Of a stretch of 64,000 bases of DNA, positions 3-2,099 are shown one piece after another. This stretch comes from Candidatus Obscuribacterales bacterium (GTDB lineage Bacteria; Cyanobacteriota; Vampirovibrionia; Obscuribacterales; Obscuribacteraceae): the NCBI GenBank assembly GCA_019747875.1, contig JAIEQI010000126.1, forward strand, positions 62,001-126,000, written 5' to 3'. Every line of letters starts with the position of its first letter. Positions within the stretch are counted from its first letter, which is position 1. The position numbers and the translations under genes were made by a program. The notes under the pieces are model-generated. The model was not told where the DNA came from. It worked only from the letters and a program-made list of their open reading frames with translations, and did not search any database.

Positions 3-899
3 ATGAGCATCGGTCAGAATGAAAGCTTGCAGGCATTGGTACCTGCTGTTCAATTAATTCCGCTGTTGAATTCGCCAACATGGAGCGAGCGAAACCAAGG
101 TTCTGCATTGATTTCAATCTACACAAAAAGCAGGCAGGCAGAGTTTCTCGAAGAATTGAGAAAGCAAGCATTGCCATCATTGAAGGAAATGGCGGGGTGG
201 GATGCAGATCACGCGCGCGCAGCCTTGCTCATTCTTGGAAGAATAGGCGGAATCAATGAAGACAAATTGCTCGCGCTGATTAACAAAGATGAGCGGTCTG
301 AGATTCTTGCGTGTGTCAGCCAGAACTCCGCAGCCAAGCAAGTTGCAAAAGATCAAGCGGAGCTCAACAAGAGTGTGCATGCCGCGCAAAAACTGGTGTC
401 CAAGTTGCAAGATAAGCCTGCTAGCGCTCAGAAGATGTTAGCGGCTCGATCCATAACGAGTAGGAGGGCAGACCTACCAAATGGGTTCTATCTTGTTCTT
501 CGGGAGTCGCCGGATAACAAACACGTTCGAGCAGCCGGAAAGAACGAAGTGATCCTGGTGAATGACTACCGCTTTCTTGCACCCGAGGAGCGGGACACCG
601 CTGAGTATCTGGTAATCGACCGCACTCAGTTTATTCCGTTTGAAATGAAAGGGCTGCCGGACAAACAAAGGGACGAGCGTGGCCGCCCAAAACTGTTAGT
701 GACTTTATCGGAATCTCAAATCAAGCCGCTAGAAGATTTTACAAGCAAGTATGCAGGACGGCAGGTTGTTATTGTTGTCGGCGGTGAAGTGGTCACTAAA
801 CACAAGATCCGGGAAGCCATCAAAGGTGGTTTGATTCAAATCACTAGATGCACAGATAACGGATGCGAAGCAATTTATACAGAGTTGGTGAAGAAGTAG
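3..899 (+). CDS. Hypothetical protein; N-terminal helical (HEAT-like) part and C-terminal SecD P1-head-like segment; start may lie upstream of the window
   Basis: ORF of 298 aa. C-terminus LSESQIKPLEDFTSKYAGRQVVIVVGGEVVTKHKIREAIKGGLIQITRC resembles the SecD periplasmic P1 pattern (GR.vai.vdg.v...i...i..G...I). Confidence 0.6.
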   Translation: MSIGQNESLQALVPAVQLIPLLNSPTWSERNQGSALISIYTKSRQAEFLEELRKQALPSLKEMAGWDADHARAALLILGRIGGINEDKLLALINKDERSEILACVSQNSAAKQVAKDQAELNKSVHAAQKLVSKLQDKPASAQKMLAARSITSRRADLPNGFYLVLRESPDNKHVRAAGKNEVILVNDYRFLAPEERDTAEYLVIDRTQFIPFEMKGLPDKQRDERGRPKLLVTLSESQIKPLEDFTSKYAGRQVVIVVGGEVVTKHKIREAIKGGLIQITRCTDNGCEAIYTELVKK

Positions 900-959: not shown

Positions 960-2099
960 CTATTTGCTTTCGTCTCTCAATTCCGCACCTTGTTCCAGGT
1001 AAATTTTCGCCCCTTCATCCTTTTTAGTGACGGTTGAGTCTTTGTCCGCGATAACCAGTGAGCCTTTCCATGCATTAACGTCGGAGCCTGCGTCGGCACG
1101 AACTGTCGAGCCATCGCAAGCCTCAACATGAGAGCCGTATTCAGCTTGGACCCCGGATCCTTTGAGTGCCGAAACGTTTGAGCCGTCTTGGGCCCTCACC
1201 TCCGACCCCTCTCCTGCTTCAACATAGGAGCCGTCCCTAGCTACTACTTTTGAGCCCTTGTTCGCGAAAACCTTGGATCCGTCCTTGGCCGTGACGTGGG
1301 AACCGTCCTCCGCGTGGACGATCGATCCATCTTTTGCGATTACTTCGGCGCCATTCTTTGCAGACACCCACGAGCCGTCTTTGGCTATTACTACCGATCC
1401 GTGTTCGGCAAAGACAGTAGACCCTTTCTCGGCAGTGATTTTTTCACCAAATTTTGCTACGACCGTCTCTCCATAATGGGCGGTTCGGAGCCCGTTTTTG
1501 AATTCAAGGCCTTGAGGTCCCTCGCTTGGCAGATCGGCCTTGGGCGTGGCCGGTACATCGCTTGGCGTATCAGGCTTGGTTGTCGCAGGTATTTCACTTG
1601 GCGTATAATCAGGTTTTGCTGCAGTGCCCGCCGATGACTTCTCATCCCAGTCGCGCATTTTTTCAGTGTTTGTGCCGTTTATTCGGTCTTTGCTGTCTAT
1701 TGTGCTTTGTGGAAGCTTGATGGACTCCGATGGCTGCGATGTTTTGGAGCTAGGTGGAGTGTCCGTTGGTTGTGGTGCAGATGGGCTGATGCTTCCTGAA
1801 TGAAGATCTGATGATGGCGTTGAGGGCTTCTTGTCTAGAATTTGCTCGCTGGAGCCTTTACCTCCGCCACCCGATCCGCCGCCAGGATGCGAACTTTGCT
1901 CATCCCATAAAAGTACTGTTGGAAGGTCTGTATTGCCTTGCGCTCTCAGTCCTTGAATTTCCCGTCCGCCGACCTGGTTGCCATTTGAAAGCTCTGGGCT
2001 TGCTACCGTGGACGGTGCTTCCACTTCTTTTAGTCTATCAGTAGCTGTATTCTGAGCGGAGGATAAACCTATTGTATCTTCTGTCATATTATTACCCAA
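960..2099 (-). CDS. Octapeptide-repeat beta-solenoid-like protein (19 x A-x-x-G-S-x-V-x) with Pro/Ser/Thr-rich N-terminal half
   Basis: 379-aa ORF; residues 207-358 read as 19 consecutive 8-residue units without indels. Confidence 0.8.
   Translation of the reverse strand: MGNNMTEDTIGLSSAQNTATDRLKEVEAPSTVASPELSNGNQVGGREIQGLRAQGNTDLPTVLLWDEQSSHPGGGSGGGGKGSSEQILDKKPSTPSSDLHSGSISPSAPQPTDTPPSSKTSQPSESIKLPQSTIDSKDRINGTNTEKMRDWDEKSSAGTAAKPDYTPSEIPATTKPDTPSDVPATPKADLPSEGPQGLEFKNGLRTAHYGETVVAKFGEKITAEKGSTVFAEHGSVVIAKDGSWVSAKNGAEVIAKDGSIVHAEDGSHVTAKDGSKVFANKGSKVVARDGSYVEAGEGSEVRAQDGSNVSALKGSGVQAEYGSHVEACDGSTVRADAGSDVNAWKGSLVIADKDSTVTKKDEGAKIYLEQGAELRDESK
1026..1481 (-). repeat. Tandem 24-bp coding repeat, 19 units, degenerate at DNA level
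   Basis: 456 nt = 19 x 24; encodes AHYGETVV AKFGEKIT AEKGSTVF AEHGSVVI AKDGSWVS ... ADKDSTVT. Confidence 0.85.

Follow-up and report, generated by a model that had tools for sequence, protein, structure and literature searches.

The window analysed here is a stretch of 64,000 nucleotides from a Candidatus Obscuribacterales genome, and near its beginning lies a complete minus-strand open reading frame whose product carries an array of octapeptide repeats towards its C-terminus (Table 1). The ATG at 2087 is more likely to be the start of this gene than the TTG further upstream; a clear Shine-Dalgarno sequence was found before neither of the two codons. In the long N-terminal part of the protein (residues 1–198) no signal peptide, transmembrane stretch or Pfam match was found, and no relative of the first ~198–202 residues was found among 60 genomes. 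The protein as a whole has no hydrophobic stretch (maximum 19-residue hydropathy of 0.63), it lacks a DUF7666 domain, and its matches to the Pfam families CopK, PDZ_Tricorn, DUF6799 and Lipoprotein_15 all fall below the cut-offs.

Table 1. Features of the octad gene and its product, in window coordinates
Feature	Position	Strand	Remark
Complete ORF, 375 aa, ATG start at 2087	960..2087	-	Alternative in-frame TTG at 2099 gives 379 aa
Residues 1-198, Ser/Pro/Thr/Gly-rich, predicted disordered	1494..2087	-	
Pro-rich 12-residue repeat in the disordered part, 2.6 copies of a 36-nt unit	1515..1606	-	
19 octads A-x-x-G-S-x-V-x, predicted beta-solenoid	1026..1481	-	Strand formed by positions 6-7-8 and Ala1 of the next octad
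C-terminal 21 residues (KKDEGAKIYLEQGAELRDESK), 2 degenerate octads, predicted last two solenoid strands	963..1025	-	

Just upstream, and on the same strand, is a very large open reading frame of 9,344 codons (2390–30424) that ends about 300 bp before the start of the octad gene. Its product has a Sec-like signal and long Gly/Ser/Thr-rich repeats of beta type; a FecR-like stretch was recognised by eye near its C-terminus, and no convincing Pfam match was found at either end. The first gene of the window (3–899; L199:11184-12899) is the end of that for a 571-residue protein with a Sec-like start, which matches the SecDF P1 head domain near the cut-off (25.4 vs 27 bits). The octad gene stands as an orphan within its genome, and no conserved partner of it was found.

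The 19 octads follow each other without gaps and are present exactly as listed in the preliminary description. The residue numbers given there (207–358) hold when counted from the TTG, but from the likelier ATG the array spans residues 203–354. At a spacing of eight, 73 residues are identical, whereas 10,000 shuffles gave 12.6 on average and never more than 26; the counts at lags 16, 24 and 32 are 71, 64 and 65. Ala at position 1 is invariant (19/19), Gly4 and Val7 are each found in 18 of the 19 octads and Ser5 in 16, while at positions 2, 3, 6 and 8 the entropy ranges from 2.5 to 3.4 bits. At the nucleotide level the units have a mean identity of only 0.52. For the framework residues A1, G4, S5 and V7, the first, second and third codon positions are identical between units at 0.90, 0.92 and 0.27, respectively, the last value being the chance level. 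Because the first two positions agree and the third does so only by chance, the repeats must be old, and selection on the protein must have maintained them; neither a recent duplication of DNA nor an artefact of the frame would give this pattern. Divergence between the units has reached saturation in the DNA but has spared the protein frame, which supports the reading frame as well as selection on the octads; the protein thus carries an octad repeat whose framework is under selection.

A short-coil solenoid had been proposed for the array from its sequence, and AlphaFold2 predicted one confidently both with and without relatives. When the residues covering the solenoid were modelled with 18 relatives, the solenoid had a mean pLDDT of 94.5 and a pTM of 0.88, and each octad contained a strand of four residues. 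The full-length protein, modelled as a single sequence without an alignment, gave a pLDDT of ~93 over residues 201–370 and of below ~50 over nearly all of residues 1–198. The octad part is accordingly predicted to be a beta-solenoid and the N-terminal part to be disordered. The array extends weakly on both sides: besides one strand per octad, the model has another ahead of octad 1 and a further two behind octad 19, within the last 21 residues, which brings the predicted strands to 22. From the residues that form each strand, positions 7 and 1 would face inward and positions 6 and 8 outward. By analogy with ice-nucleation proteins (INPs), we infer two octads per 16-residue coil, which would give about 11 coils and a rod roughly 5 nm long. 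A vertical-stacking test of 16- against 24-residue coils, made on the outward strand positions of 39 arrays, gave a weak signal (z = 2.2 at lag 2 and z = 0.6 at lag 3). The best solved match in Foldseek was TibA (PDB 4q1q), with a TM-score of 0.70 on the query and a probability of 1.00 but an E-value of only 0.03, so that this match, like the other solved ones, exceeds the usual E-value limit. The window protein shares the beta-solenoid fold with TibA and related autotransporter adhesin passengers; there is, however, no sequence relation (12% identity), and export as an autotransporter is a feature of TibA.

A search with the octad profile, which had been suggested as a check, recovered related arrays in 37 of the 53 genomes of the order at E<=1e-5 (32 of the 53 at E<=1e-8), with up to 19 matches in a single genome, whereas in the sample of the phylum outside the order 2 of 116 genomes matched at 1e-8. 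Octad proteins are therefore spread through the order. We read 67 distinct ORFs, and several types could be recognised: proteins with a lipoprotein-like or Sec signal followed by 6–9 octads (e.g., L012, L216 and L221); proteins with a LysM-like sequence (seen by eye, with no Pfam call) followed by five octads; proteins with a Sec signal and more degenerate A-x-[DN]-N arrays (L013, L015 and L268); and proteins with no signal, to which L004, L005, L022 and the window protein belong. The LysM-like subfamily recurs in several genera (L018, L037, L059, L194, L244 and L248). The same framework is seen in 349 bacterial octads (A1 in 334, G4 in 271, S5 in 230 and V7 in 285), and the other four positions are variable. 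The signals and LysM-like parts of the relatives point to putative scaffolds of the cell envelope. An envelope role may not carry over from these relatives to the window copy, which lacks an export signal.

The window copy is the sole octad protein in its genome (an 8.46-Mb assembly). An apparent second copy, L002 (E 0.0015), was rejected as a chance match, because its frame reads through a tandem DNA repeat; this repeat, at an unrelated site of the same genome (G000:C181, ~1500–1700), reads as GSNQEA units. L022 of genome G003 was considered as a full-length counterpart, being disordered and Gly-rich before its octads, but essentially only the octads align. A single-protein scan of named genomes found no relative, and a pattern scan of them returned mostly low-complexity AxVGSxVG proteins, which were set aside as different. 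No match was found in the plasmids searched, and our literature search found no paper on octad proteins of this kind.

With moderate confidence, we favour the reading that the protein is a structural scaffold or display rod, in which a rigid C-terminal beta-solenoid is carried on a disordered tether of ~198 residues. Ala1, Ser5 and Val7 of each octad would pack inside as ladders and Gly4 would make the turn, so that the core would be fixed while positions 2, 3, 6 and 8 face outward and vary freely. The stiff and regular surface of the solenoid might then bind a partner or associate with other rods, and the tether would link it to whatever it serves. As there is no signal peptide, a cytoplasmic site or a non-Sec route is left, and the protein would act inside the cell or leave it by such a route. 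The outer positions of the window protein form no conserved patch and do not alternate, which would also fit a rod without a specific surface.

The neighbourhood raises the question of a secreted surface adhesin that works together with the 9,344-residue repeat protein, a reading we consider unlikely. The giant gene adjoins the octad gene on the same strand, with no minus-strand terminator-like site in the gap, and the best solved structural match, TibA, is an adhesin fragment. The gap is nevertheless long for an operon, the octad protein has no signal peptide whereas the giant protein has a Sec-like start, and the similarly laid-out gene of G003 has no giant gene beside it. A link between the two genes is possible, and only their position speaks for it.

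Octad arrays also occur in phages. Eight phage records matched in tblastn, and arrays are found in gp76 of the Gordonia phage Spooky, gp51 of the Mycobacterium phage Squirty, a podovirus, a Porphyromonas phage and a microvirus. In the five phage records inspected, the octad genes lie mainly among those for HNH endonucleases, methylases, exonucleases, RecT and helicase loaders; in the microvirus, the gene is between those for the replication initiator and the DNA pilot protein. The pattern is held by 33 viral contigs, of which about 12 look like diversified octads and many are low-complexity look-alikes. A C-terminal DUF7666-like domain is present in the actinobacterial phage copies and in the podovirus copy, the latter below the cut-off, while L184 and L187 exceed it. 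In the set formed by L184, L185, L186, L187 and L188, the phage octad solenoid proteins are encoded in non-structural gene regions, and some are fused to DUF7666. Among viral models, Foldseek matched a DUF7666 protein at a TM-score of 0.50.

These proteins suggest another reading, that the window protein is a phage-type intracellular binding or mimic protein, derived from phage or acting against it, which we regard as quite improbable. The phage DUF7666 (PF24703) proteins, such as Spooky gp76, have A-x-x-G-S-x-V-x arrays of like length, mostly beside genes of DNA metabolism and not beside virion genes, and the window copy likewise lacks a signal peptide; the number of viral contigs with the pattern is in favour too, to the extent that they are not look-alikes. 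However, the phage proteins begin with a short cap and end with DUF7666, whereas the window protein has neither; its N-terminus is long and predicted to be disordered, and its solenoid is the last part of the chain. The genes examined around it (transglycosylase, aminotransferase, hydrolase and kinase) do not resemble a prophage, and export signals are found on many of the relatives in the order.

The array had also been described as laid out like the repeats of INPs, with the caution that its function probably differs, and both parts of this description agree with our results. In published models of INPs, two octads form one coil, in which Ala and position 7 point inward and Ser forms a ladder (PMC9418140, PMC10727499). 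The conserved A1, S5 and V7 of the window protein match the inward residues of INPs in PMC9418140, and together with the predicted fold they suggest a beta-solenoid of the same construction. The likeness to INPs (InaZ/PbINP; PF00818) therefore covers the octad frame, with Ala1, Ser5 and position 7 predicted to be inward, and a predicted beta-solenoid behind a flexible N-terminal stretch. The Pfam family Ice_nucleation (PF00818) gave 16.8 bits (E 0.0051) with the window protein, below the curated cut-off of 27, and a search of the whole genome with PF00818 gave nothing at E<=1.

The differences concern the parts specific to ice. The repeat of the window protein is a plain 8-mer: a comparison of its odd with its even octads gave no significant difference (p = 0.13), so no 16-residue alternation could be detected, and the pooled relatives have only a weak lag-2 signal (z = 2.2). 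TxT and [ST]x[ST] each occur in 1 of the 19 octads, and there is no SxT or Tyr ladder, Tyr being found at position 3 in 2 of the 19. R-coils, with Arg at coil position 12, are absent, the equivalent octad position 4 being Gly in 18 octads and Asp in one. The conserved N-terminal globular domain of INPs is also absent, its place being taken by the predicted disordered residues, as is the 41-residue C-terminal cap, in place of which the 21 residues after the octads are predicted as two more strands. Finally, the ~11 coils contrast with about 50–80 repeats in INPs (PMC9418140). Judged from its residues, the window protein is most probably not an INP, and a frame like that of INPs with no ice-ordering residues makes a scaffold or binding rod likelier than an ice maker. 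That the protein nucleates or binds ice, with flat faces of the solenoid ordering water, is therefore very improbable in spite of the shared framework and fold and the weak Pfam match. One relative, L200 of genome G006, does exceed the Pfam cut-off (28.6 vs 27 bits), in favour of such an activity; it also means that automatic annotation may label some octad proteins as INPs on the frame alone.

A trimeric spike like the beta-helix of T4 gp5 or VgrG is hardly credible: the C-terminal needle of gp5 (PF22178) is likewise an octapeptide beta-helix with a Val in each octad, and some relatives have weak matches to PF22178, the gp5 C-terminal trimer, and to DUF2345, but PF22178 is not among the Pfam matches of the window protein at E<=1, in the Gly/Asn frame of gp5 position a is Gly and position b is Asn/Asp (PMC3004832) where the octad protein has Ala and mixed residues, and the gp5 chains intertwine in threes to form a part of the virion, whereas here a single chain with paired strands is predicted at high confidence.

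The scaffold or display rod that we favour is not a new kind of system. INPs tend to be regarded as a family apart. A wider and rather doubtful proposal is that octad solenoids are a modular scaffold common to the Obscuribacterales and phages, with a fixed frame, outer residues changed for different partners and many localisation modules, of which INPs would be one specialised branch; the modules seen beside octads are Sec signals, lipoprotein signals, LysM-like sequences, the disordered tether and DUF7666. What we find most interesting is that the frame, minus the ice motifs, is spread across the lineage and is also carried by phages. Such a lineage-wide set would show the use of the bare scaffold, would offer natural negative controls for work on ice nucleation and would give short, regular rods for protein design. 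A separate question, open to testing, comes from the phages, whose copies lie in non-structural gene regions. L198 (G013:C1:140000-156000), from a relative, covers a portion of an open frame with a listed length of 18,420 aa, and at L192 (G017:C479) three octad genes lie within ~7 kb, two of them with signal-like N-termini.
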